Shown here: piece after piece, positions 3,650 to 23,840 of the stretch
Numbering within the stretch: the first letter of the stretch is position 1
How the letters are laid out: every line of letters begins with the position of its first letter
Assembly: GCA_900315395.1 (NCBI GenBank)
Contig: OMZC01000072.1
Coordinates: forward strand, 1 to 33,524
From: an uncultured Gammaproteobacteria bacterium
GTDB taxonomy: Bacteria; Pseudomonadota; Gammaproteobacteria; Enterobacterales; Succinivibrionaceae
DNA: 33,524 nt
Direction: 5' to 3'
Position numbers and translations under genes: made by a program
The notes under the pieces: model-generated
Told to the model about the DNA's origin: nothing
Seen by the model: only the letters and a program-made list of their open reading frames with translations
Database searches by the model: none

Positions 3650-5245
3650 TTGAAATACGTTTTTACTGACAATACGACAGAAGCTCAGAACGCTGAGGAT
3701 GCAGTTTTAGAGCTTGAATATAATGATCTCTTAACAAATCTTGGGGAATACTCTTTTAAGACCACCAAAGAGCTTACTCCACGTTCATTTTCTAAATTAC
3801 AGTTAAGAGCTCGTAATGCTTTAAAGTCTCTTTTAAATAACCCCTTATCAAAAGTAATGCTCTTATGTGGAAGCACCAGTGTCGATACTATTGATATTGC
3901 CTGTGATCTTTTCAAAGATGTAGCATCAATTACACCTACTATAGCGATTGCTCCTACTAAATTTGAGCTCTTCGGTTCAGATAAAGTAAGTGGAGTTCTA
4001 ACAGAGCCAGGGTACGTGGTTATGCCATGTTCTCACTTTATAGATCATCCTAAGTGGTTGGGTATGGCTGACGCCTGCATTGCGATGAATGAAGGCTTAA
4101 AGCTTGTTCTGTGTGGTGATGCAACAGACTGCGCTACCTTAAATATGATGTGGCAGACCTTAGATAATGCTGTGCGAGCTGATATTGTCCTCGAGTACCC
4201 AATATTAGGTGCTATGACCTTAATGGGCTCATTAGTAGCTTCATATAGTGAAAAATATCAAGTCAATGCTTTTGATGAAAAAGCAATACGTCTTTTATGT
4301 ATTTGGTCATGCAGACAAAGTGGTGACAGACGCTATTTGGGTATTCCTGAGGCAAAGCTACTCTCATTGGTCATTGAAGCTAATAGATATGCATCAGTAA
4401 GAGCTCATGGCTCTGACGATTTTATAGTTACAGAACATGATGTGCTAAAAGCTATTGGTGCTGCTGATTTTAGAGTAAATTCACTAGCTGAATCTGAACT
4501 TAGAAATCATCGAGATAATCAGATCATTTTAGAGACCAAAGGTGAGGTTACAGGTCAGATCAATGGCTTGAGCGTCATTGAAACAGCCGGTACCTCTTAT
4601 GAGTACGGTGAGCCTGTAAGAATTACCGCTACACTGCGAGCAGGCGGTGACGGTGATGTTATCGATATTGAAAGAAAAGCAGAGCTGGCAGGTCAAATCC
4701 ATGCCAAAGCGATGATGATCATAAATGGCTTTTTAGCTACAGAGTTTGGAGCAGAGCAACCACTACCAGTATCAGCAAGCTTAGTATTTGAGCAGTCCTA
4801 CAGTGAAATTGATGGTGATTCAGCATCTTTAACCGGTCTGTGCGCTGTAATTTCAAGTTTATCTGACCTGCCTATAAGACAAGATCTTGCAGTAACTGGT
4901 GCTGTCGATCAGTTTGGTGATGTTCAGCCTGTAGGTGGCGTTAACGAAAAAATTGAAGGCTTCTTTAAGATTTGTCGTTTACATGGTCTTACAGGAACAC
5001 AGGGCGTAATCATCCCTTATTCATGTATCCATCAGTTAGTGTTACGTCCTTCTGTAATTAAAGCTGTAAAAGAAGGTCGTTTCCATATCTATGTAGTAGG
5101 TCATGTAACAGGAGCGGCTAAAGTCCTCATGAAGACTAACTGGGGCGAGCCTGATGATAATGAGTCAATCTGTGGCAAGATCTGCTCAAGATTAGACGAT
5201 ATCAGTGCTGTCAAAGCCTCAAAGCCATGGTGGCATTTGTGGTAA
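3650..5245 (+). CDS. lonH: LonH/YcbZ-type Lon-family (S16) protease
   Basis: This is a 531-residue homologue of E. coli YcbZ (LonH, 586 residues), a Lon-related protein with a degenerate ATPase-like N-terminal half and a C-terminal S16 serine-lysine protease domain. The catalytic Ser391 lies in DGDSAS and the catalytic Lys434 in NEKIEGFF; the 43-residue spacing equals that of Lon S679/K722. The region from about residue 300 to 470 (GQINGLSVIE, DIERKAELAGQIHAK, FEQSYSEIDGDSAS, GAVDQFGDVQPVGGVNEKI) is closely YcbZ-like. No GxxGxGK[ST] Walker A is visible in the N-terminal half, as I recall for YcbZ, so ATP-driven unfolding is doubtful. The start is TTG at 3650, chosen because TAGGTG lies 8-9 bases upstream and the sequence then reads MKYVF. 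It probably shares a transcript with tamB. Confidence 0.92.
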   Translation: MKYVFTDNTTEAQNAEDAVLELEYNDLLTNLGEYSFKTTKELTPRSFSKLQLRARNALKSLLNNPLSKVMLLCGSTSVDTIDIACDLFKDVASITPTIAIAPTKFELFGSDKVSGVLTEPGYVVMPCSHFIDHPKWLGMADACIAMNEGLKLVLCGDATDCATLNMMWQTLDNAVRADIVLEYPILGAMTLMGSLVASYSEKYQVNAFDEKAIRLLCIWSCRQSGDRRYLGIPEAKLLSLVIEANRYASVRAHGSDDFIVTEHDVLKAIGAADFRVNSLAESELRNHRDNQIILETKGEVTGQINGLSVIETAGTSYEYGEPVRITATLRAGGDGDVIDIERKAELAGQIHAKAMMIINGFLATEFGAEQPLPVSASLVFEQSYSEIDGDSASLTGLCAVISSLSDLPIRQDLAVTGAVDQFGDVQPVGGVNEKIEGFFKICRLHGLTGTQGVIIPYSCIHQLVLRPSVIKAVKEGRFHIYVVGHVTGAAKVLMKTNWGEPDDNESICGKICSRLDDISAVKASKPWWHLW

Positions 5246-8327: not shown

Positions 8328-9992
8328 TTACTTTATGTATTTTTCCCAATGCTCGCCTTTTAACTTATAGAAATCCTGATGCTGGAAATTCATATAGTAA
8401 GCATTAGTAGATTCAGCTATAAAAGCTGTTTGTGGTAAATCGTAAAAGACATCTGCAATCTTATCTGTCTTGCTGTCTTCTTCGTTTTTAGCAAAGACAT
8501 TGTCTTCAATTGAACGCTTTACAATCTCGGAAATAGCCAAATAGCTATAGAATCCTTTGATCCTCTGAGTCTTGTGAGCCTTAGCAGTACCCCCCCCTAC
8601 AGCATTTCTCTGTGCACCTAAGAAGCTTACGCCTACAGGAATTCTAGTGATCTTATCAGTAGGAATTTCTCTTAGTTTTGCAATCTGCATCTTATCGCCA
8701 CGGATAGCAGCACCATGCTCTGGCACCATGATAAAGAGGGTATTTCTGTTTGAATCTCTAATATCTTTAATAAAATCCTCAAGATTGTCTAACAGGAGCT
8801 TTAAACGAGGAGCATAGCTCTGTGATTTCTTTTCACCAGCTAATCTGTTACCGTCGTGTAAAGATAAGAGGTTCATAAAAGTAATGTTGTTAACATTGCC
8901 GTTTCTTGCAATGTTGTTTACATAGGCTTTAAATAAGTCTGAGTCACTTCTAATAGCACTTCCATCAAATGCGTTGTACTTTACAGCAAGTTTTGACAGA
9001 TCATGGATATTCTCGTTTAAACCACCTAAATCATGTAAGGTCTTTAGATAGTCACCGTATTTACCGTTGTGGTCAAAGTAAACTTCACTTTGATAACCTA
9101 ATTGTTCAACAGAGGTAATCAGCTCACATTCAGATCTTCTTTCCTTATACATCTGAGCTTCAGTCATCTGACCGCAGTTAGAACGTAATAATCTTAAAGA
9201 TGATGGAGTTGAATATGAGGATACAGAGTTAAAGGTATCGAAGCTGAAATCAAAGGTTCTAAACAAAGGATGCTTTAACAGATTTGAAGCTTCAATATCA
9301 TCTGTTGCCATAGAACAGATATTCACAATTACTATATCAAATGGTGTGAAGTTCTCTGGCAATGTAGAAGGCATGGTTACAATACGCTGCCTTTCTAACT
9401 CCAAAAAAGTTTGTAAGTAGTTCTCAACACCCTGACTGTCAGCTGTTCCTATCTGTGGAGGAATATCAGCACTATCTGCAACTACATTTTCTACAGACTG
9501 TGATTTGCTCTCTTTAGCCACACTTAAAGCTGAAATATTAAGGCAAGCTACAGTTATAAAGCAGATAACAACAATAGTTGTAACTTTTAAAAAGTCATTG
9601 ATAAAGAAGACTGCAATAAATAACAGTACAAAGATACCTAAGTAGCTAAAATCAAAGTAATCTGAAACAAAGGTTGAGAGTAACTCAAAGACGCCTGCTA
9701 TACCTTTCTCATCATAAACTACCTGAGGTGAGAGCATTGGCAGGTAACTGTCGTGATAGATCAGAACAAGACCAAAGATGATTAGAATAGTCTTATAAAC
9801 CTTATTTAAAGGCTTTACTCTAATAGAGAATAGGCAGAGTAAAAACAGCACTAAATTCAATGCAAAATCAAATCCAGACAAATTCATGAAATAGAGTCCG
9901 AATTTGAACAGGAAATATGTTCCAACTAGACTGCTTATTCTTAATGAAAAAGATAGCTTAGTTTTGATAATTTCTTTTAATGCCTTAAACAT
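8328..9992 (-). CDS. bcsG: BcsG, cellulose phosphoethanolamine transferase (catalytically intact copy)
   Basis: This 554-residue inner-membrane protein (E. coli BcsG 559) has an N-terminal membrane domain of about five segments (residues 20-160) and a periplasmic alkaline-phosphatase-superfamily domain. BcsG transfers phosphoethanolamine from phosphatidylethanolamine to cellulose. All key residues of E. coli BcsG are present at a constant offset of 17: zinc ligand Cys226 (NICSMATDD; C243), nucleophile Ser261 (SYSTPS; S278), His379 (SLHDGN; H396), and Glu425-His426 (VPEHGAA; E442/H443). It is the last gene of the bcs operon, 116 bases after the degenerate copy. That gap holds an 18-base direct repeat. 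Its ribosome site is weak (AGGCAG). No clear terminator follows. Confidence 0.93.
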   Translation of the reverse strand: MFKALKEIIKTKLSFSLRISSLVGTYFLFKFGLYFMNLSGFDFALNLVLFLLCLFSIRVKPLNKVYKTILIIFGLVLIYHDSYLPMLSPQVVYDEKGIAGVFELLSTFVSDYFDFSYLGIFVLLFIAVFFINDFLKVTTIVVICFITVACLNISALSVAKESKSQSVENVVADSADIPPQIGTADSQGVENYLQTFLELERQRIVTMPSTLPENFTPFDIVIVNICSMATDDIEASNLLKHPLFRTFDFSFDTFNSVSSYSTPSSLRLLRSNCGQMTEAQMYKERRSECELITSVEQLGYQSEVYFDHNGKYGDYLKTLHDLGGLNENIHDLSKLAVKYNAFDGSAIRSDSDLFKAYVNNIARNGNVNNITFMNLLSLHDGNRLAGEKKSQSYAPRLKLLLDNLEDFIKDIRDSNRNTLFIMVPEHGAAIRGDKMQIAKLREIPTDKITRIPVGVSFLGAQRNAVGGGTAKAHKTQRIKGFYSYLAISEIVKRSIEDNVFAKNEEDSKTDKIADVFYDLPQTAFIAESTNAYYMNFQHQDFYKLKGEHWEKYIK

Positions 9993-10020
9993 ACTGCCTA
10001 ATCTCTTACTTTGTTTATCT

Positions 10021-10071
10021 TTATGTTTGTTGATTGTTATTTTTTGTTAATCGTTATGTTTGTTGATTGTT
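10021..10071. repeat. 18-base direct repeat between the two bcsG genes
   Basis: TTATGTTTGTTGATTGTT occurs exactly at 10021-10038 and 10054-10071, period 33. A third, weaker run (TTTGTT) flanks each copy. It lies in the only sizeable gap (116 bases) inside the operon, upstream of the intact bcsG on the - strand. It could be a local duplication, a regulator site or a leader element for the last gene. Confidence 0.6.
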
Positions 10072-10108
10072 GTATTTATTTTTTAGTTAACTTCTCTACG
10101 ACAGCTTA

Positions 10109-11701
10109 CTACTCTGTGTATTGTGTCCAATCATCAGATGCTGTCTTGTAGAAGAATTTGTCTTTAAACTGTAAGAACACTGCATTCTCATTTTCATCAA
10201 CAGGGGAGGTTTGAGACAGATCTTCAGTTAAAGCTAAATTAGACATCACATTATCTTCATAGAAGATGTTGCCATCGATAGCTCTCTTGATTAAATGAGC
10301 AACACTCATATAGCTAGTAGGAGAGGTTACATTGATAGCAGATGCTCTTTGCTTGTGACTTATAAATTTAATCATAGCAGTTACATTTGTAAGAGTATGT
10401 GATGGAATATCCTTTACACCCTTTAACTGTGTTCTATCACCTTGTAGGGCAGAACCATCAGATGGTAAGAGCACAAATAAGGTGTCGTTTGGTAGACCTG
10501 ATAAGTAATCTACAAACTTGTCCAAATTTAATAAGAAGTCTTTTAAGACCATATCATATTCAGTCTCGCCCTTTACGTTGTCAGCAAGTGACATACGTAA
10601 GAATGAGAACATCTGATTATTATGATCCTGTCTTTGAGCTTCAATATACTCAGACATTACATCAATATGATTTAATGTAGTCAGTAACTGATTTGGTTTT
10701 GCCTTATTCTCAATCATTTGAGATGGGAACTCAGTTCTTTCCTGTAAGAATTTGGCAATCTTAAAGTTGTCATCTTTTCTGTCAAACAGGAATTGACCCT
10801 GATAACCTAATCTTTCTAATGATCTGAACAGTGAGCAACTCTTGTTGTCTTTTAAGAGTTCTTCACGTGATTTCTGACCACAAATAGAATCAAACAGACG
10901 TAAAGTTGCTTCTTTTTTATCAGTAGTAACAGAGTTAAAGTCACTTAAATAAATATCAAATCTCTTTAAAACAGCATGCTCTTTAGCATTGTGCACATAA
11001 AGATCTTTGTTAGACATGCCACTTACCTGTAAAACTACAATATTAAATGGCTTGAAGTTCTTTCTTAAGTGACCTGGATAATCTATCTTTCTGTCAGCTT
11101 CTTTTTCATAGAAGGTCTCAAGATAACGCTGCAGATTGGATTTTGTAAAATTACCTCTCTTCTCAACTAAGTCCTTGTTGGTCTTAGTAGCAATAAAGCT
11201 GTCATTTACTGTAATTCTGTCATCGTTATCGATGATATTCTTTAAGAATTCGGTAGGAACTACTACTGTAGCAAAGATAAGTAAATAGGTGATGGTAATT
11301 ACTCTTACAAAGCGGGCAGCAAAATATAAAACTGCAATAGCTAAGATAAAAGCAAAGATCATCTTTAAGTTTACAAAGCCTTCAATAAACTCAACGATGT
11401 AGCCTAAAGAGAAGTCTGTAAGGTTATTTCTCTGGGCAATCATCTGCTCGACAGATGGCAGATAACTGTCATGGTAGAACAAGGCAAAGGTAGCAATAAC
11501 TACAATTGTTCTGTAGAACTTGTTGAAATACTTATTTCCAAAATAAAGACAAATAGCTGTAAAGCCTAAAAGATTTAGCAACAGTGAAAAGTCGATAAAT
11601 CCTGTTAGGTACAGACCTACTTTGAAAATATATAAAGAGGAGAAAAATAAAGATCCTCTAAAACTTACTTTAGGTTTTAATGCGTTAAGTTCAGTATTCA
11701 T
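10109..11701 (-). CDS. BcsG paralogue lacking all catalytic and zinc residues (predicted pseudoenzyme)
   Basis: This 530-residue protein is colinear with the intact BcsG at 8328-9992: the same membrane segments (the FYHDSYLPS loop matches IYHDSYLPM), the same PFNIVVLQ...FNSV...LRLF-x-x-ICGQ core, and the same tail (FKDKFFYKTASDDWTQYTE against FQHQDFYKLKGEHWEKYIK). Each active-site position differs: zinc Cys becomes Ser227, nucleophile Ser becomes Lys262, His becomes Ala373, and Glu-His becomes Ser414-Asp415. The frame is intact and the protein near full length, so it looks maintained rather than decaying. It follows bcsF by 5 bases, the normal bcsG position. A phosphoethanolamine transferase role is excluded by the residues; a scaffold or regulatory role in the Bcs complex is inference. 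Confidence 0.88.
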   Translation of the reverse strand: MNTELNALKPKVSFRGSLFFSSLYIFKVGLYLTGFIDFSLLLNLLGFTAICLYFGNKYFNKFYRTIVVIATFALFYHDSYLPSVEQMIAQRNNLTDFSLGYIVEFIEGFVNLKMIFAFILAIAVLYFAARFVRVITITYLLIFATVVVPTEFLKNIIDNDDRITVNDSFIATKTNKDLVEKRGNFTKSNLQRYLETFYEKEADRKIDYPGHLRKNFKPFNIVVLQVSGMSNKDLYVHNAKEHAVLKRFDIYLSDFNSVTTDKKEATLRLFDSICGQKSREELLKDNKSCSLFRSLERLGYQGQFLFDRKDDNFKIAKFLQERTEFPSQMIENKAKPNQLLTTLNHIDVMSEYIEAQRQDHNNQMFSFLRMSLADNVKGETEYDMVLKDFLLNLDKFVDYLSGLPNDTLFVLLPSDGSALQGDRTQLKGVKDIPSHTLTNVTAMIKFISHKQRASAINVTSPTSYMSVAHLIKRAIDGNIFYEDNVMSNLALTEDLSQTSPVDENENAVFLQFKDKFFYKTASDDWTQYTE

Positions 11702-11706
11702 GCTTA

Positions 11707-11892
11707 TTATTTCTTTATGAAGTCTTTAAATGCACCTTTGTCTTTCAGTTTTGAGCGAAATTTGGTTGATAATCTGAAAATAACGCGATATTTATCAAAA
11801 GTCTTTCTTAAAAAGAATCCTACTGGAATAAATAATATTCCACATAACGCAACTAGTTCTACGATATCAACTAATGGCAGAGTATCAAGCAT
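11707..11892 (-). CDS. bcsF: BcsF, small membrane protein of the cellulose complex
   Basis: I assign 61 residues (E. coli BcsF 63) starting MLDTLPLVDIVELVALCGILF. There is one transmembrane helix (about residues 9-26, ending IPVGFFLRK) followed by a basic cytoplasmic tail, the BcsF pattern. BcsF recruits BcsE to the membrane and belongs to the BcsEFG module. An ATG at 11892 is preferred over upstream in-frame ATGs (11901, 11916) because GGAAGGA ends 8 bases before it. It overlaps the bcsE stop by 8 bases, implying translational coupling. Confidence 0.85.
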   Translation of the reverse strand: MLDTLPLVDIVELVALCGILFIPVGFFLRKTFDKYRVIFRLSTKFRSKLKDKGAFKDFIKK

Positions 11893-13486
11893 CTTGTTCA
11901 TCCTTCCATAGTTCATTCATGGATACAGGCACTGCTGTTACAAGCTTAGTATCTGCCAAATCATAGATACTCTTAGCTTTCTTCTTCATCAATTCTTCTT
12001 GTCTTTGTTTTGTAATGATTTCATGCATGATGTTTACATCTTCAAAGGAATCAAACTCAGTAGATCCAAGATCTTTAATCTCAGATACAATTCCTTGATA
12101 GGTATATACAGCAGAGCAGGTCTTAAATAATGTAGTTGGTTTAGTATTAAATGTGTGTTCAAGAGTAATCGCTAACTCACCTTCACGGCAGCTTGGTAAG
12201 TAGAGAATAATGTAGCCGTGCATAACGGTACAGTAGTCACCACCACGCTTAGGTTTGAACTGGCTTACACACATTTTCTCGGTAAGACCATCTTTAACCG
12301 TAAGTTTAGCTAAAGTTCCTCTTAAATTAGATTCTTCTAGATTATGTGAAATTAAATTCTGCACTTTAACAATAAAGTCTTTTGGCATTAAGAAGCCTTT
12401 GCCTTCATTATCAATTAAGTGGTAGTTGTCTTTAATTTCATTAAAACTCTTACTGATGTTCTTTTGGAAAACAAGAGTTTTTAGTGTTGGTAACATCGCA
12501 TTGATGTAGGTGCCTTTTGCATCTGTTTCAAAGATGAAGTTAGCACCGCAGGTAATTAAAAATTGCTCAGAATTTGCTCTGATGCCTCTTACCTTCTCAA
12601 TAACAATGATCTTTAAGTTACTACCTCTAGTAGTTCTTAGCTTATAAACATATTCAGCTGTTTCATCAATAGAGTCTCGAGAGGTAACAGTTAAGAATAC
12701 AGATGCTGCTGTTGCATTCTCAATAGCATCTTCAAACAGCTCTTTATTAGAATAGAATCTCTTAACATTGTTATATACAGCACTGTCAGGAGTGAAAGTG
12801 TTGTCTGTAATATAACAGGTGTTCTCATCAATAGAAGCTAAAAGATTAGTATCAGCAACAACTAATTCAATGCCGTTTTCATCAATCTTAATTTGGTTGT
12901 TTGACTGAATAAAATGACCATCAGGCTCTCTCCAGAACAGGGTATTCATCAAAATACCGTTAGGTCTGTCTGTAAATGATACTAGGCCTGAATAATGGGT
13001 ACTCTCTCTTAACAGTCTCTTTACAAGAGCATCCTCATAAAGACCGTGAGTAATAACTACAACTGATAAAGAAGACTCAATGGCATATTCTTCTAAAGAA
13101 GCTAAAGTGTTCTGTAACTGCTTTTCAGATAACTTATTTAAAAGTGTATCCTGCAATAAAACTACAACTAATGAGTTTTCATCTGTTACTTTTTGTAATG
13201 AAAGATCTCTTGTAATACTGGTAACGTCTAAAGTGTTCTCATCATACTCATAAACGTGAGCTTTGATAGAATCTACAATATCCTTGTTATCAAGATAAGA
13301 GATCATCTTATCAGGCTCAATACCACCTACAACTAAGAATCTTAAATAGTCTTCTTTACTGTTGCGATATAAACAGTTTAATGCCAGATTTACAGCAATC
13401 TGTTTGCTTGAGGTTGTCAAAAGATACAAACAGCCCTGCTGCAATTCCTGTAACTGGGATATAAGATTATTAATGCCTAAATCCAT
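11885..13486 (-). CDS. bcsE: BcsE, c-di-GMP-binding cellulose regulator
   Basis: This 533-residue protein (E. coli 523) is the cytoplasmic c-di-GMP sensor that boosts cellulose output with BcsF and the BcsRQ pair. The N-terminal region is NTPase/REC-like (HGLYEDALVKRLLRESTHYSGLVSF near 147-171). The C-terminal GIL domain carries the c-di-GMP I-site-like RxGD motif as RGGD at 414-417, almost the same position as in E. coli (R415). The ATG is 6 bases after the bcsC stop. In E. coli bcsEFG is transcribed divergently from bcsRQABZC; here it is co-directional and continuous with it. Confidence 0.92.
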   Translation of the reverse strand: MDLGINNLISQLQELQQGCLYLLTTSSKQIAVNLALNCLYRNSKEDYLRFLVVGGIEPDKMISYLDNKDIVDSIKAHVYEYDENTLDVTSITRDLSLQKVTDENSLVVVLLQDTLLNKLSEKQLQNTLASLEEYAIESSLSVVVITHGLYEDALVKRLLRESTHYSGLVSFTDRPNGILMNTLFWREPDGHFIQSNNQIKIDENGIELVVADTNLLASIDENTCYITDNTFTPDSAVYNNVKRFYSNKELFEDAIENATAASVFLTVTSRDSIDETAEYVYKLRTTRGSNLKIIVIEKVRGIRANSEQFLITCGANFIFETDAKGTYINAMLPTLKTLVFQKNISKSFNEIKDNYHLIDNEGKGFLMPKDFIVKVQNLISHNLEESNLRGTLAKLTVKDGLTEKMCVSQFKPKRGGDYCTVMHGYIILYLPSCREGELAITLEHTFNTKPTTLFKTCSAVYTYQGIVSEIKDLGSTEFDSFEDVNIMHEIITKQRQEELMKKKAKSIYDLADTKLVTAVPVSMNELWKDEQDA

Positions 13487-17831: not shown

Positions 17832-20126
17832 TTACTGTGCCTTCTTCTGAGATTTCTTGAGCAATCTTGCTTTCTGAATTCTCTTTAGAACCTTGTAGCA
17901 GATAATGCAGAATACTAATGAGCTGAATAATGACAGTAACATTAACATCCATGGGTTATCTAACATTACGTAGTAAACACGCTGATACCAAGGTAAGTCA
18001 CCTACGTAATAGCTCTCGCCCACATCAAAGCTTCTGCTTCTATCTTCTTTGTATAAGGTGATAGAACCACGTGCTTCACTAGATGAGGCATTTAAGATAA
18101 GGTTCTCGTTTACAATTTCCATTCCAGATGGACTGTCAGACAGAATTGCAACAACAGTCTTATCTTTGTTAAGAGGTGATCTGAATGAAATAATTGCGCC
18201 TAAACCTTCAGAGCTTTGAGCTGTCATCTTCTGAGTAACATCTCTCTTATCGCTAGAGAAGCTGTTTGGCATCTGATTGTTAAATGAGGTTGAAATTGCC
18301 TGACGTGTCTTGTTTAACACTAAAGTAGCATTCTCATCTGTCTTTAAGAAATCAGGTACCTGACCTACTACTAAGATATCCTTGTAGGTAAGTCTGTCTT
18401 CAGCTTTTTCAGAAGCATCGGTCACAATCTCAATATTAGTTGAGCTGTAACCTAACTGAGCACCAATTCTTCCTAAAGTATTGAACAGGGCACATAAATC
18501 GCTAGTATCAGCAGGATTGGTGATAACAGCAGCTGTTTCCTGTAAATCAGCATAGATTGAGAATGGGTAACCACTCTTCCAGAACAACTCTAGGTTTGGC
18601 ATCAGGGTAAAGTGATATAAACCAGAGAAGTCGATGGTTGATGCTGGATCAATTTCTACACGATTTGGAATAGGTAACTGAGTGGTACACTCATTAACCT
18701 TTGAGGTGTAAACCATTGAGTAGTTAAAGTCAAAGGTAAGTTTGTTCATTGGTTTTAAGAATGAAGTTTCAACTTTTGACTTTGTAAATAAGTTTAATGT
18801 ACCTAATAAAGGCATATTCTCAGTGATTACATCAGACTCATTCTCAGGCTTTAATGGATATGATCTTAATAAATGATCATTAACTAAGAATCTTAACTGA
18901 GACATTCCTAATGGAGATGGTTTTGAGTACTTGTATAAAAGGTTCATATCAATTCTTGAACCGTTAACAAAGTACAGATCTGGTGGTAAGTTCAGATCTA
19001 AGTTAATAGGTACAGGTTTAAAGCCTTGTGAACTTAACTGAGCATCAAAAGTAGCTAAAGAGCCAAATGTTACCTTCTTGGTAGTATCAATCCAGTTAGG
19101 AGCATCATAAGGCTTTCTCTTTTCGATTTCTTTATACTCTAAAACCTTGCTCAATGGACCGTTGAAAAGCACGTTACCCATTGCTAAAGCTTTAGCAGCA
19201 GTTACTAAGCCTTCTGAATCAGGAGCTGAAACAATCAGCATCTTACCTGTAAGTGTTGATGGAATATCAGCCATTTCAACTGTAGGAACATCAGTCTTTG
19301 GATAATCCTGCAAGAAGTATGGGCGATTGTCATTAGTGATAAAGACAATGGCATTACCATCATCAGGTAAGCTGTTAATGAAAACAGGGTAATCAATACC
19401 TCTCCATTTAGTTAACACACCACCAAATGAGCTTACGATTGAAGCTGCTTTAATAGTTGCTTCATCAGGTACTGTAGCAAACACAACTGGTAGCACAGTC
19501 TTATCTGATGTAGTTACATTAAAGAAATGTACAGGGAAGTTAGCCAAATCATTAGCAATATGTAACTTCTGCTTTGTAAGTCTTAAGTTTGAAGCTGCAC
19601 CAATGTTTAACCATAAGGTTGAATCAACTGGGTTTTCGCAGATATCGGTATAGTGACCGATAAACTCAAACTCAATGATATTGTCATCACCTAGAGCGCG
19701 AGGATCGAGTTTAACCTCGTTCTCTACTTTATTACCTAGATCCTCTTTCTGAATAGGAATAGTCTTAACTAGAAGACCATTTAGATAAACGTTTAACTGT
19801 GATCTTACAGGAATTAAAGATGGTGATGGAGTGTAGTATAAGAACAGAGTTGAATCAGAGATTAACTCATCTTTCTTAATAGAAAAATGCACACTCTTTT
19901 TAGGAGTTACACCAGAAAGACCTAAACCACCACTAGGCTCTACCCAATCAAGACTTGACATAGGGTAGTTCATTACGGTGTTAGGAATAGATTCCACTCT
20001 TACAGGTGATACTTTTTCAACTGCAGGTGTTTCCTCTTTTTTAACTTTTTCTGCAGCAAAGGCACTAGTAGTTGCATATGTTGCAAGTAAAAGTGCAGTT
20101 ACTAACTTACAGGATTTAGAAAGCAT
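17832..20126 (-). CDS. bcsB: BcsB, periplasmic cellulose synthase subunit
   Basis: This 764-residue protein (E. coli 779) has an N-terminal signal (MLSKSCKLVTALLLATYATTSAFA-AE). Repeated carbohydrate-binding and flavodoxin-like domains follow, with motifs FSIKKDELISDSTLFLYYTPSP, FEFIGHYTDICENP (paired Cys) and NECTTQLPIPNRVEID. A single C-terminal transmembrane helix spans about 726-744 and is followed by a basic tail. BcsB anchors to BcsA, activates it and guides the emerging glucan through the periplasm. The ATG lies 10 bases after the bcsA stop, indicating tight coupling. Confidence 0.95.
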   Translation of the reverse strand: MLSKSCKLVTALLLATYATTSAFAAEKVKKEETPAVEKVSPVRVESIPNTVMNYPMSSLDWVEPSGGLGLSGVTPKKSVHFSIKKDELISDSTLFLYYTPSPSLIPVRSQLNVYLNGLLVKTIPIQKEDLGNKVENEVKLDPRALGDDNIIEFEFIGHYTDICENPVDSTLWLNIGAASNLRLTKQKLHIANDLANFPVHFFNVTTSDKTVLPVVFATVPDEATIKAASIVSSFGGVLTKWRGIDYPVFINSLPDDGNAIVFITNDNRPYFLQDYPKTDVPTVEMADIPSTLTGKMLIVSAPDSEGLVTAAKALAMGNVLFNGPLSKVLEYKEIEKRKPYDAPNWIDTTKKVTFGSLATFDAQLSSQGFKPVPINLDLNLPPDLYFVNGSRIDMNLLYKYSKPSPLGMSQLRFLVNDHLLRSYPLKPENESDVITENMPLLGTLNLFTKSKVETSFLKPMNKLTFDFNYSMVYTSKVNECTTQLPIPNRVEIDPASTIDFSGLYHFTLMPNLELFWKSGYPFSIYADLQETAAVITNPADTSDLCALFNTLGRIGAQLGYSSTNIEIVTDASEKAEDRLTYKDILVVGQVPDFLKTDENATLVLNKTRQAISTSFNNQMPNSFSSDKRDVTQKMTAQSSEGLGAIISFRSPLNKDKTVVAILSDSPSGMEIVNENLILNASSSEARGSITLYKEDRSRSFDVGESYYVGDLPWYQRVYYVMLDNPWMLMLLSLFSSLVFCIICYKVLKRIQKARLLKKSQKKAQ

Positions 20127-20136
20127 AAGTACTCCG

Positions 20137-22767
20137 TTAACACTCTGTCTTGTTAAGCTGTCTGTTCAATGGAAGATCTTTTGTCAGATCGAGTGGCTGT
20201 GGAAGCAGACTGAAGACAAAAAGCATTGAGCGCACAATCACAAACAGTACCTCTCTGAAAACAGGAGGGGCATTTTTTATCATTTTTAAATAGCCGTTAA
20301 GGCCAAATTTAACCAAAGTATGGATACCGTGAAGTAATCCATCCTGATGTAAATTCTCAAAGCTGTGTGACCATCTGTCACCACAGGCAAAGGTTGTTCT
20401 GATGTATTCGATATTCTCTTTTAAGCCGTTTAAATGCAGCTTTAGACCTAATTTTGATTTATTAAAGAAACGAACAGTTCCCTTAAAGCGATATCTGATA
20501 CCAGCATTAGCAATAGTGATATATAAAGGCATATCCTGGTATAGAAGATCAGCTACTGATTTACCGTCTAAATTAGGAGTTGGTAATCTGATACCAAGAC
20601 CTTCTTTTGAGAAATCAGTGATTACAACAGAAATTGAGTTCTCATTTTTAAGCTCTAACTGAGCTCTGATATTACAAGCAACACGAGGGGAGCTTCTTAC
20701 CTGTTTACGCTCTAGAGCAGCAGCTGAAGCTGCACCTAAAACTAGGAGGTTATAGCATACCCAAGCAATGTTAATGAGAATGATCCAAACCTCAGCAAAA
20801 GGATCGGTAGCAATTCTGTAGAAACCGTAAATAAGTCCTAAGAAGTTTAAGATGATCAAAAAGATATAAGACTTTGATACGGTCCAGTCAAAATAGGTTT
20901 CTTCGTTAGATTCACCTTTAGCGGTAACGTTGAACTTACCGTGCTTAGGGGAAATTAAAGCTACTAAGGTAGGTACAGTGATGTACCAGGACAAAATAGT
21001 TTCGTAGATAACACCCCAGAAATAGAATCTCTTGTTATCCTGAATCTTTTGGTTAGTAATTGTCGAGTGAACCATATGAGGTAGCACATAGGCAAAGATC
21101 ATAAGACCTGATGCGAAAATTACGTACACATTAAAGAACAGGAATGGTAATGGTGCTAACAGGAAGATAATACGAGGCAGACCATGCAAGAAGTGGATCA
21201 TCGCATTAGCAAAGCAGATACGCTGAGGAATTGTTAGTCCCTTACCAAATAGAGGGTTATCAATTCTAAAGATCTGCACCATACCACGAGCCCATCTAAT
21301 ACGCTGATTGATGTGGTCAGCTAGTGACTCGGTTGCAAGACCAGCTGCCAGTGGCATACTAATAAATGCTGATGAATAACCTTTTCTGTTTAATCTTAAA
21401 GAGGTGTGAGCATCTTCTGTAACAGTCTCAACTGCAATACCACCAATCTCTTCTAGTGGCTTACGTCTGATGATGGCGCAAGAACCACAGAACATGGTTG
21501 CGTTCCAGGTATCATTACCTTTTTGAATGAAGTCATGGAACAGTGAGTTTTCTGCAGGAACTTCACCTTTAATATCAAGGTTCTTTTCAAATGGATCATC
21601 TGAATAGAAGTGATGTGGAGTCTGTACTAGAGCAATCTTCTGATCATGTACCATCCAGCCTACAGTCATCTGTAAGAAAGCTCTTGTAGGTACGTGGTCA
21701 CAGTCAAAGATAGCAATGATTTCACCATTAGTTACTGTTAAAGCGTGATTGATGTTACCTGCTTTAGCATGGTTATGCTCTTTTCTAATAATGTAGTTAA
21801 CACCAATTTCTTTACAGTAGTTCTCAAAATCCTTTCTAGTGCCATCATCTAGCATATGCACTTTTAATTTGTCCTGAGGCCAGTCAAGATCAAGTGCTGC
21901 TAAAAGACATGGCTTTACAACTTCAAGTGGCTCATTGTAACTTGGAATAAAGATATCAACTGTAGGCCATAAACTTGTGTCTTTTGGTAGAGGGTAAGGT
22001 TTTCTGTCTAATACCCAGCAAACCTGGAAATAAGATAAAACTAAGACTACATAAGCATAAATTTCAGCTGCTAACAGTAAAAGTGCGCAAATTGCAGTTA
22101 CAGGATCTGTAAGCAGAATAGTCTTGGTAATACGCCAGTAAATGTAACGTGTTGAGATGATGATTGAAATAAAAATAAGTAACATCAGGGCAACATGATT
22201 TTTTACAGGCTTTAAAAGGATAGCTAAAAGCCACATCAACCCCACGAAGATTAACTGGTAGGTAAAATCAAAAGGCTGTGTTACTGCAAGAATACAGCTC
22301 AATAATGAGCCTACAAGCAGAATTCTTAAGATGATGTAATTTCTGTCTTTTAACAGTACGCTCTTTTTAGCAGTAGCTCTGTCACCTACGTTTACAGTGA
22401 ACTTAGTTACTTTCTTTAATACAGGAATACTTACGTACTTTTTAAATAATTCTACGATAGTATTTACTGTTTCAGCACTGCGCTGACCCTTTTTAGGATC
22501 AAATCTTACAATGAGTAAAAAGAGAGTCTGTATAACTACTCTTAAAGGATCTAAGAACTTAGGATTATTTCTTTGAATTTGTGGATAAAAGAAATAAAAA
22601 TGCTGTCTTAGATTTTTGTAGTATCTGTTCTCAACAGGCAAAACCGCTAGCACTATTGATAAAAAGAACAGATTTACCAAACAGGTGATTTTAGATGCGC
22701 CGTTTAGTCGCCAGTTATCATATAAATCGAGAGGATTTATAGCCTCTACACTACCTCTTTGCAACAT
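20137..22767 (-). CDS. bcsA: BcsA, c-di-GMP-activated cellulose synthase catalytic subunit
   Basis: This 876-residue inner-membrane GT2 enzyme (E. coli 872) polymerises UDP-glucose into beta-1,4-glucan. The GT motifs are complete: FIPSYNEP (273-280), HMLDDGT (304-310), DCD (355-357), FCGSCA (426-431), the general-base TED (450-452) and QRIRW (488-492). The C-terminal PilZ domain has RxxxR (Arg687-Arg691) and DxSxxG (Asp718-Gly723), so c-di-GMP activation should be retained. Hydrophobic segments flank the GT domain at about 145-250 and 520-680. The ATG overlaps the bcsQ stop (TAATG). Confidence 0.97.
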   Translation of the reverse strand: MLQRGSVEAINPLDLYDNWRLNGASKITCLVNLFFLSIVLAVLPVENRYYKNLRQHFYFFYPQIQRNNPKFLDPLRVVIQTLFLLIVRFDPKKGQRSAETVNTIVELFKKYVSIPVLKKVTKFTVNVGDRATAKKSVLLKDRNYIILRILLVGSLLSCILAVTQPFDFTYQLIFVGLMWLLAILLKPVKNHVALMLLIFISIIISTRYIYWRITKTILLTDPVTAICALLLLAAEIYAYVVLVLSYFQVCWVLDRKPYPLPKDTSLWPTVDIFIPSYNEPLEVVKPCLLAALDLDWPQDKLKVHMLDDGTRKDFENYCKEIGVNYIIRKEHNHAKAGNINHALTVTNGEIIAIFDCDHVPTRAFLQMTVGWMVHDQKIALVQTPHHFYSDDPFEKNLDIKGEVPAENSLFHDFIQKGNDTWNATMFCGSCAIIRRKPLEEIGGIAVETVTEDAHTSLRLNRKGYSSAFISMPLAAGLATESLADHINQRIRWARGMVQIFRIDNPLFGKGLTIPQRICFANAMIHFLHGLPRIIFLLAPLPFLFFNVYVIFASGLMIFAYVLPHMVHSTITNQKIQDNKRFYFWGVIYETILSWYITVPTLVALISPKHGKFNVTAKGESNEETYFDWTVSKSYIFLIILNFLGLIYGFYRIATDPFAEVWIILINIAWVCYNLLVLGAASAAALERKQVRSSPRVACNIRAQLELKNENSISVVITDFSKEGLGIRLPTPNLDGKSVADLLYQDMPLYITIANAGIRYRFKGTVRFFNKSKLGLKLHLNGLKENIEYIRTTFACGDRWSHSFENLHQDGLLHGIHTLVKFGLNGYLKMIKNAPPVFREVLFVIVRSMLFVFSLLPQPLDLTKDLPLNRQLNKTEC

Positions 22768-23516
22768 TATTCATCTGCTCCTACTTTTTTACAGATAAGA
22801 ATGATGTCAAAAAGGATCCTTTCTAGAGCATTAGTTGAGGCACTGATTGGCAAGAACTTTGAGAATGGTTCCTGATGCATGTTTGCATCAATTACTGATT
22901 CATCAAATTCTATTGCAGAGTTAAGAATGCAATTACCTACTTTGCTCTTTTTCATCAGCATGAACACATCGTTCATGATCTTACTTGAGGCTACCATTTT
23001 GTTGACGAGGAAGTATTCATTGGCCTGAACATCAATACTGTTAAGTCTTACTAAAGAGTTCTGCTCAGGTTCAATGATGGTAATGGTCATAGTAGAAACA
23101 GATGATAGAGCTTTAGCAAATTGTGATTCTCTGTTACCAGCATCGATGATGACAAAGTCGATAGCTTTAAAAGCATCTAAGCTCTTTACTAAAGCATTAG
23201 CTGTATAAGCACAGTTTTCTTCAGTGCTGATAAGCTCGTGAGCACTACCAAATGGAATGAAGTAAGCGTTCTGACTGTATTTAAACAGAAGATTCTGATT
23301 GTCTCTATTGAAAGTATTGTCTTTTAAAGCGTCTAAAAAACCATAATTCTGTCTTTCAAGACCGAATAAAAGAGATGAACTTACGGAATTTTTACTGTTG
23401 TCAGCATCAATACATACAGTCTTGAATCCCTGCAATGACAGAGAATAAGTCATAGCAGCGACTAATGAACTAACTCCAGTAAAGTGATTTAATCCTTGTA
23501 AAATGATTGTATACAT
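22767..23516 (-). CDS. bcsQ: BcsQ, MinD/ParA-like ATPase with atypical P-loop
   Basis: This 249-residue SIMIBI-family protein (E. coli BcsQ 250) pairs with BcsR for cellulose-synthase assembly and polar localisation. Fold landmarks are TVCIDADNSKNS (33-44), AYFIPFGSAHE, and DFVIIDAGNRES (Walker B/switch region). The P-loop is eroded. Where enterobacterial BcsQ has GVRGGVGTTT, this protein has GLNHFTGVSS (8-17), losing the GG pair and the classic first Thr but keeping Gly14 and Ser16-Ser17. ATP-dependent dimerisation with BcsR may be altered. AGGA precedes the ATG. The gene starts 9 bases after the bcsR stop. Confidence 0.87.
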   Translation of the reverse strand: MYTIILQGLNHFTGVSSLVAAMTYSLSLQGFKTVCIDADNSKNSVSSSLLFGLERQNYGFLDALKDNTFNRDNQNLLFKYSQNAYFIPFGSAHELISTEENCAYTANALVKSLDAFKAIDFVIIDAGNRESQFAKALSSVSTMTITIIEPEQNSLVRLNSIDVQANEYFLVNKMVASSKIMNDVFMLMKKSKVGNCILNSAIEFDESVIDANMHQEPFSKFLPISASTNALERILFDIILICKKVGADE

Positions 23517-23525
23517 GTGTCCTGA

Positions 23526-23795
23526 CTAAAACAATTTTCCTAACGATGAAAGCAAAGGCCCATAATGCCCTTTAGCATTATCAACCTTGGTTGAACCGTG
23601 AAAATCGACATAGTCAGAAATAATACAATCATTAGAGACAGACAGAGCTGCAATGTCCCCTGGCAGGGAACACAGTTTGTCAAATGAGCCTAAAAGCTCA
23701 GGTTTGGTCTTTTCTCTTAAGGAGAACTCGTCCTCAAGAGTTTGAGAGCCTGCAAGTTTTGTCTTTATTTCTAAATGACGTTCTAGTGTATTCAT
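23526..23795 (-). CDS. bcsR: BcsR-like short cellulose-complex protein, first gene of the operon
   Basis: This is an 89-residue protein if it starts at the ATG at 23795 (MNTLERHLEIK); a TTG at 23834 would give 102. E. coli BcsR is 62. The C-terminal half fits the BcsR pattern: LPGDIAALS, then SDYVDFHGSTKVDNAKGHYGPLLSSL, comparable to the D-Y-x-D...A-x-x-x-x-PLL core of BcsR. The first 40 or so residues are extra and charged. BcsR stabilises BcsQ and supports BcsE. Neither candidate start has a recognisable Shine-Dalgarno. Position directly before bcsQ strongly supports the assignment; the sequence match alone is modest. Confidence 0.7.
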   Translation of the reverse strand: MNTLERHLEIKTKLAGSQTLEDEFSLREKTKPELLGSFDKLCSLPGDIAALSVSNDCIISDYVDFHGSTKVDNAKGHYGPLLSSLGKLF

Positions 23796-23840
23796 TAGAT
23801 AGTTATATGTTTTTTTATATTTATAAGTGAGCAATTTTAG

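Follow-up and report, generated by a model that had tools for sequence, protein, structure and literature searches.

The cellulose operon of an uncultured Succinivibrionaceae bacterium carries two adjacent bcsG genes that, by sequence comparison across the genus, show complementary loss. The upstream copy has lost the catalytic and zinc residues of the family, whereas the downstream copy keeps them and is degenerate in another part of the protein: the membrane stretch that spans the TM3/4 linker through the TM4/5 loop (positions 87–141). We put the probability at about 0.55 that the two products form a hetero-oligomeric BcsG array with divided labour, in which the inactive copy would provide docking and the lipid corral and the active copy catalysis. 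Evolution appears here to have parted docking and lipid presentation from catalysis, and two proteins may share the job of the single E. coli BcsG. Whether array protomers differ in their duties thereby becomes testable, with residues indicated for each duty.

Two bcsG genes in one type II operon

The window—the whole stretch of DNA analyzed, 33,524 nucleotides—is contig 111 of a fragmented assembly (2.48 Mb, 125 contigs). Its minus strand encodes a type II cellulose operon, with probable bcsR followed by bcsQ, A, B, Z, C, E, F and two bcsG genes. Pfam matches to BcsE, BcsG, BcsB, BcsC, BcsQ, BcsF, GH8, and a GT2–PilZ BcsA place it in this class, which a passage of PMC11470070 describes as bcsE and bcsG together with the bcs synthase operon. 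The genes are as follows.

23526..23834, minus strand: probable bcsR, assigned by its place ahead of bcsQ and by 53% and 34% identity to the same-place ORF in genomes G012 and G011; the Pfam search gave no match for it
22767..23516, minus strand: bcsQ; PF06564, 74.6 bits
20137..22767, minus strand: bcsA with N-terminal extension and PilZ; GT2 and PilZ matches, with DDG, FDCDH, TED, and QRIRW, which we take to be BcsA motifs
17832..20126, minus strand: bcsB; PF03170, 559.8 bits
16780..17952, minus strand: bcsZ (GH8), with Lys in the column of the putative catalytic Glu and its true start probably within the ORF; PF01270, 36.4 bits
13493..16747, minus strand: bcsC; PF05420, 252.4 bits, plus TPR matches
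11885..13486, minus strand: bcsE; PF10995, 236.3 bits
11707..11916, minus strand: bcsF; PF11120, 23.2 bits (cut-off 23)
10109..11701, minus strand: bcsG-like pseudoenzyme (BcsG-psi), 530 aa, full length; PF11658, 281.9 bits; catalytic columns S227, K262, A373, S414, D415
8328..9992, minus strand: bcsG, catalytic copy, 554 aa; PF11658, 433.2 bits; C226, S261, H379, E425, H426 present

The pseudoenzyme starts 5 nt past the bcsF stop and the active bcsG 116 nt beyond the pseudoenzyme, with no terminator-like site between the two bcsG genes on the coding strand. The 116-nt spacer (9993–10108) is A-rich and near-repetitive; the corresponding genes are 3 nt apart in G015 and 9 nt apart in G011, and overlap by 1 nt in G012. 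Around its P-loop, bcsQ reads GLNHFTGVSS, unlike a standard Walker A motif, and the other BcsQs of the family that were aligned deviate as well. Elsewhere in the window, an ORF at 3650–5245 (531 aa) gives weak matches to the Lon-protease C-terminal domain (30.6 bits) and the LonB lid (22.9 bits).

Both bcsG ORFs match PF11658 (CBP_BcsG; cut-off 24.8 bits) along almost the entire profile, the pseudoenzyme over positions 5–516 of 516, and they share 27% identity over 555 columns (BLASTP, E 2e-63). The original prediction of a full-length BcsG paralogue beside an intact BcsG is thus borne out, as is its reading of the catalytic columns. In the active copy the five residues each lie 17 positions before E. 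coli C243, S278, H396, E442, and H443. In the pseudoenzyme, alignments place a different residue in every one of these columns.

11021..11023, minus strand: Ser227 for zinc ligand Cys243
10916..10918, minus strand: Lys262 for nucleophile Ser278
10583..10585, minus strand: Ala373 for His396
10457..10462, minus strand: Ser414-Asp415 for Glu442-His443

One MAFFT run put the neighbouring Asp374, not Ala373, in the His396 column; none of the alignments made put a His there. The flanking stretches FNSV, ICGQ, TLFVLLP, and DIPS align, as had been proposed, with similar stretches of the active copy (BLASTP). In E. coli numbering, residues 277 and 458 of the window pseudoenzyme are D and K, and among the five inactive copies described below Tyr277 is lost in all five and Arg458 in four. 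A passage of PMC10525099 reports that E. coli BcsG no longer sustains the pellicle phenotype when Ala replaces C243, E442, H443, S278, H396, or Y277; the same source indicates that Arg458 matters in Salmonella. Judged by this set of residues (C243, S278, H396, E442, and H443, with Y277 and R458), the window pseudoenzyme does not classify as an active BcsG. All other E. coli-like numbers used here are those of L026, a 559-aa BcsG in which the catalytic residues carry the same numbers as in E. coli.

Conservation of the pair within the genus

Nineteen genomes of the genus, some of them incomplete, were searched; seven have bcsG and five carry the active–inactive pair, and we take the genomes with the pair to be those of uncultured rumen bacteria. 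Gene order is constant across the five: the inactive copy is always upstream, adjoining bcsF, and the active copy lies directly behind it. The four paired genomes with a readable bcsA also have a BcsA N-terminal extension that is alignable among them. Read in the order C, S, H, E, H, the catalytic columns of the inactive copies are SKASD, EKISR, DATGE, DENSH, and DPATC, so that at most one of the five residues is kept, and only in G011, which has His at 443. The active partners read CSHEH in the four complete copies and likewise in the fifth, across two fragments.

The inactive copies form a single clade (support 100/100) and are open frames throughout, the other four being 34–44% identical to the window copy over their full length. 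A pairwise codon model rejected omega = 1 for all four inactive pairs against the window copy (2dlnL 168.8, 138.1, 121.4, and 97.7), and one inactive pair split by domain gave rejection in both the catalytic (2dlnL 112.1) and membrane (33.3) parts. Since dS is saturated, and since the fits for one inactive pair and for one active pair grew to unbounded length, we rely only on the rejection of omega = 1 and quote no omega. By this comparison of codons, the pseudoenzyme is under purifying selection, its catalytic domain included. Such selection argues that the inactive catalytic domain does more than ride along and probably serves a structural or binding function in its own right. The idea of a retained pseudoenzyme therefore held up under the proposed check of collecting bcs loci with two bcsG genes and testing selection on the inactive copy: the copy is present in five genomes, its frames are intact in relatives, and neutral evolution is rejected.

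The pair was sought more widely in three samples. The order sample (394 genomes) gave 54 genomes with a match. Of these, only G000 and G012 have two genes; the pair of fragments in G042 is counted as a single broken gene. No inactive copy was found outside the family among the 31 proteins read, all CSHEH, from 47 matching order-sample genomes, the remaining 16 being only counted. In the class sample, where matches were counted only, five of 369 genomes matched, with two genes only in G000. The phylum sample, searched with the pseudoenzyme as query and likewise only counted, gave matches in 19 of 398 genomes; G1057 showed two match pieces within one open frame. A scan of named genomes by two short peptide patterns returned 12 loci: G015, G011, G012, G004, G013, and seven others (L074–L080), each of the seven with one bcsG-like ORF at the locus, reading CSHEH. 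L069–L073 were dropped as duplicates.

The tree placed the pseudoenzymes outside a group of the active copies with G006 and G013 (support 91/85); a tree pairing the pseudoenzymes with the active copies was unrejected (p-AU 0.303). Another tandem pair, in G039 of the same family but a different genus (L060:13405–16637), likewise has two adjacent bcsG genes past bcsF. It is a separate duplication on the tree (100/99), and it differs from the pair described here in that CSHEH, F101, and R137 are intact in each copy; positions 94 and 105 are N and F. Broken or partial bcsG genes occur in other genera of the family, with in-frame stops in G042 (L066) and G019 (L068); G054 (L065) has two separate bcsG ORFs and no other ORF resembling the window Bcs proteins within 19.7 kb. 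The broken genes of G042, G054, and G019 perhaps reflect repeated loss.

Full-text search of the open-licence literature found no report of an active and inactive BcsG pair, and none of a Succinivibrionaceae with cellulose synthase. Excerpts of PMC10333796 and PMC12654831 describe truncated or synonymously changed bcsG, and bcsG is absent from the queries in the excerpt of PMC7112194.

Complementary loss between the two copies

The comparison set for the two copies comprised 44 further full-length BcsGs, of which 38 come from outside the family and two are the G039 copies; all 44 read CSHEH. Conservation counts throughout exclude the fragments G054N, G054C, G042, G045N, and G019. The contrast centers on one membrane stretch, located in the two window genes as follows.

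11291..11455, minus strand: pseudoenzyme, TM3/4 linker to TM4/5 loop (E. coli-like 87–141), conserved; Q94, F101, Y105, R137 kept
9573..9737, minus strand: active copy, same TM3/4 linker–TM4/5 loop stretch, degenerate; R137 is K, and the alignments give either a gap or G for F101

Arg137, which follows TM4, is present in 44/44 comparison proteins and in all five inactive copies, whereas the five active partners have K, K, N, Y, and H. Phe101 of the TM3/4 linker (42/44) and Gln94 (40/44, with Asn in the other four) are likewise kept in every inactive copy and lost in every active partner. Tyr105 (40/44, with Phe in four) is likewise intact in every inactive copy; among the active partners only that of G011 retains it. 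The active copy of G004, split over two contigs, is shown separately in this residue tally.

Six sites of the stretch reach at least 75% conservation; of these, the complete active partners (n = 4) retain 8% and the inactive copies (n = 5) 77%. The N-terminal fragment of the G004 active copy was displayed but uncounted. The catalytic domain shows the reverse over 99 sites, with 80% kept in active and 47–48% in inactive copies. Permutation of column labels gave 0/20000 outcomes as extreme in each of four alignments. The stretch had been picked with the alignment in view, so 436 windows were also scanned blind; the lowest window again starts at 87, and 3/5000 shuffles contained a window as low.

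Profile similarity over positions 85–115 followed the same division: 0.36–0.59 in active copies (n = 4), 0.84–0.98 in inactive copies (n = 5), and 0.85–1.04 in other BcsGs of the family (n = 6), these last six belonging to the profile on which they are scored. The two window copies stand at 0.88 (pseudoenzyme) and 0.36 (active). On a fixed tree, stem and tip branch lengths in 87–141 were 0.34/0.60 for inactive and 0.93/1.18 for active copies; in the catalytic domain they were 0.84/1.14 and 0.36/0.40. The G004 active copy is absent from the profile-similarity, tree, and branch-length counts. Single-copy G006 and G013, of the same genus, keep both halves. At the level of sequence, complementary loss between the paired copies is thus shown, the active partners being degenerate where the pseudoenzymes are conserved.

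Several results weaken the contrast. It is small when the membrane domain is taken as a whole, where 11 sites reach 90% conservation: at these, active copies keep 31/55 cells and inactive copies 38/55, with G004 active-copy residues counted by column. TM1–3 drifted alike in both copies (0.53–0.61 vs 0.59–0.66), the last 90 residues are about equally conserved in active and inactive copies, and the inactive copies have themselves lost Tyr27 (5/5) and Phe28 (4/5), both kept by the active ones. The single-copy control G013 also has a long branch in 87–141 (0.72, against 0.13 for G006, on the fixed tree). The membrane half of the test rests on six sites, although the sequence difference is plain by eye, and the copies within each group share ancestry, so sites and rows in the conservation tests are non-independent. 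Given the modest whole-membrane contrast, the TM1–3 drift, and the equal C terminus, the claim of reciprocal loss is limited to the one stretch.

Proposed division of labour and its alternatives

Gene duplication can leave enzyme–pseudoenzyme pairs in which an inactive paralogue is kept beside the active one; we know of no such pair within the phosphoethanolamine transferases. The E. coli and Salmonella BcsGs resemble the present proteins in family, length, and a similar operon place past bcsF, and the window active copy likewise has all five catalytic and zinc residues. The difference from E. coli lies in composition: three copies of one protein there, and two paralogues with complementary losses here. 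The 2024 cryo-EM structures place three identical E. coli BcsGs beside BcsA, with their TM4/5 loops on the BcsA N-terminal domain (PMC11470070, PMC11379886). Neighbouring BcsGs touch via TM4 and TM2/TM5, and the interface helices of TM3/4 enclose a corral to which lipid head groups have access (PMC11379886). Likely independent action of the three copies is the proposal of PMC11470070, and a passage of PMC11379886 calls it possible. BcsE and BcsF make no direct contact with BcsG in the structure (PMC11470070); an in vivo BcsF–BcsG interaction is cited elsewhere (PMC11379886). On the original suggestion that the pseudoenzyme might serve BcsF/BcsE, the first source speaks against it and the second, for BcsF, in its favour.

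The BcsA-binding loop of BcsG is given as residues 123–125 (PMC11379886), whereas the conserved Arg lies at 137 in our alignment, past the hydrophobic TM4 stretch. Arg137 is a putative member of the TM4/5 loop, and the TM3/4 linker features and the Arg after TM4 may define BcsA docking.

On these grounds, bcsG was probably duplicated in this Succinivibrionaceae genus, after which the copies underwent complementary loss. The upstream copy became a pseudoenzyme retaining the TM3/4 linker–TM4/5 loop stretch, and the downstream copy retained the catalytic domain while losing the conserved residues of 87–141. The two would most likely sit together in an array beside BcsA, where the pseudoenzyme could occupy the BcsA docking position or positions and present lipid or hold the array, and the active copy could pack against it and transfer phosphoethanolamine to cellulose. 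Complementary losses in adjacent genes of one complex make divided labour the simplest account, and since BcsG forms an array, a mixed array is a natural way of combining both copies; the binding, array composition, transfer activity, and product we infer. The original prediction had offered, among other roles, a partner or scaffold of the active transferase. That part we favour, and the reciprocal loss seen in the active partner makes it more specific. A transferase split in trans—with the docking and lipid module on the polypeptide whose catalytic domain is dead, catalysis on the second, and neither modifying cellulose alone—we advance only tentatively, at clearly less than even odds.

A regulatory decoy would account for part of the evidence. 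The pseudoenzyme might compete for BcsA docking sites or for cellulose, thinning or patterning the decoration; its dead catalytic site and retained docking features fit this, as do adjacent genes without a terminator-like site between them on the coding strand. The decoy leaves the loss of membrane features in the active partner unexplained, however, and we regard it as unlikely. Similarly unlikely as the main explanation, though compatible with divided labour, is a new role for the inactive catalytic domain—for example in binding glycans or in contacting BcsB or BcsC—kept by selection. Purifying selection on that domain when taken by itself, in the one pair so split (2dlnL 112), the location there of 7/8 pseudoenzyme-specific invariant sites, and a pair of Cys that align with positions 290 and 306 and are kept 5/5 all point toward it. 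Among the five copies, however, the old catalytic columns hold unlike residues; they show no new site in common and offer no shared candidate for a new metal site.

Alternatively, the active copy may have left the cellulose synthase to modify something else, leaving the pseudoenzyme alone as a structural Bcs subunit. It has indeed lost conserved membrane features that serve the Bcs complex in E. coli. Yet it still lies directly behind the pseudoenzyme in 5/5 genomes, and its four complete copies keep 206/232 cells at the 58 sites of the catalytic domain that other BcsGs conserve, which makes such a departure improbable. A decaying pseudogene or assembly artefact, suggested by the lost catalytic residues and fragmented assemblies, can be set aside almost entirely given open frames of 530–542 aa in five genome assemblies at 34–44% identity and rejection of the neutral model.

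The bcsZ of the same operon has an unusual residue of its own. We take the Glu of TSEGQSY to be the catalytic Glu of GH8. Opposite this Glu of PDB 4q2b the window bcsZ has Lys, in a region where the alignment is weak. A passage of PMC11379886 states that cellulase activity is critical for secretion in E. coli, so a second dead enzyme in the operon would be notable. The same column, read from the weak alignment, is K in G012, D in G004, E in G011, and I in G013, with Glu in G039, G033, and G006.
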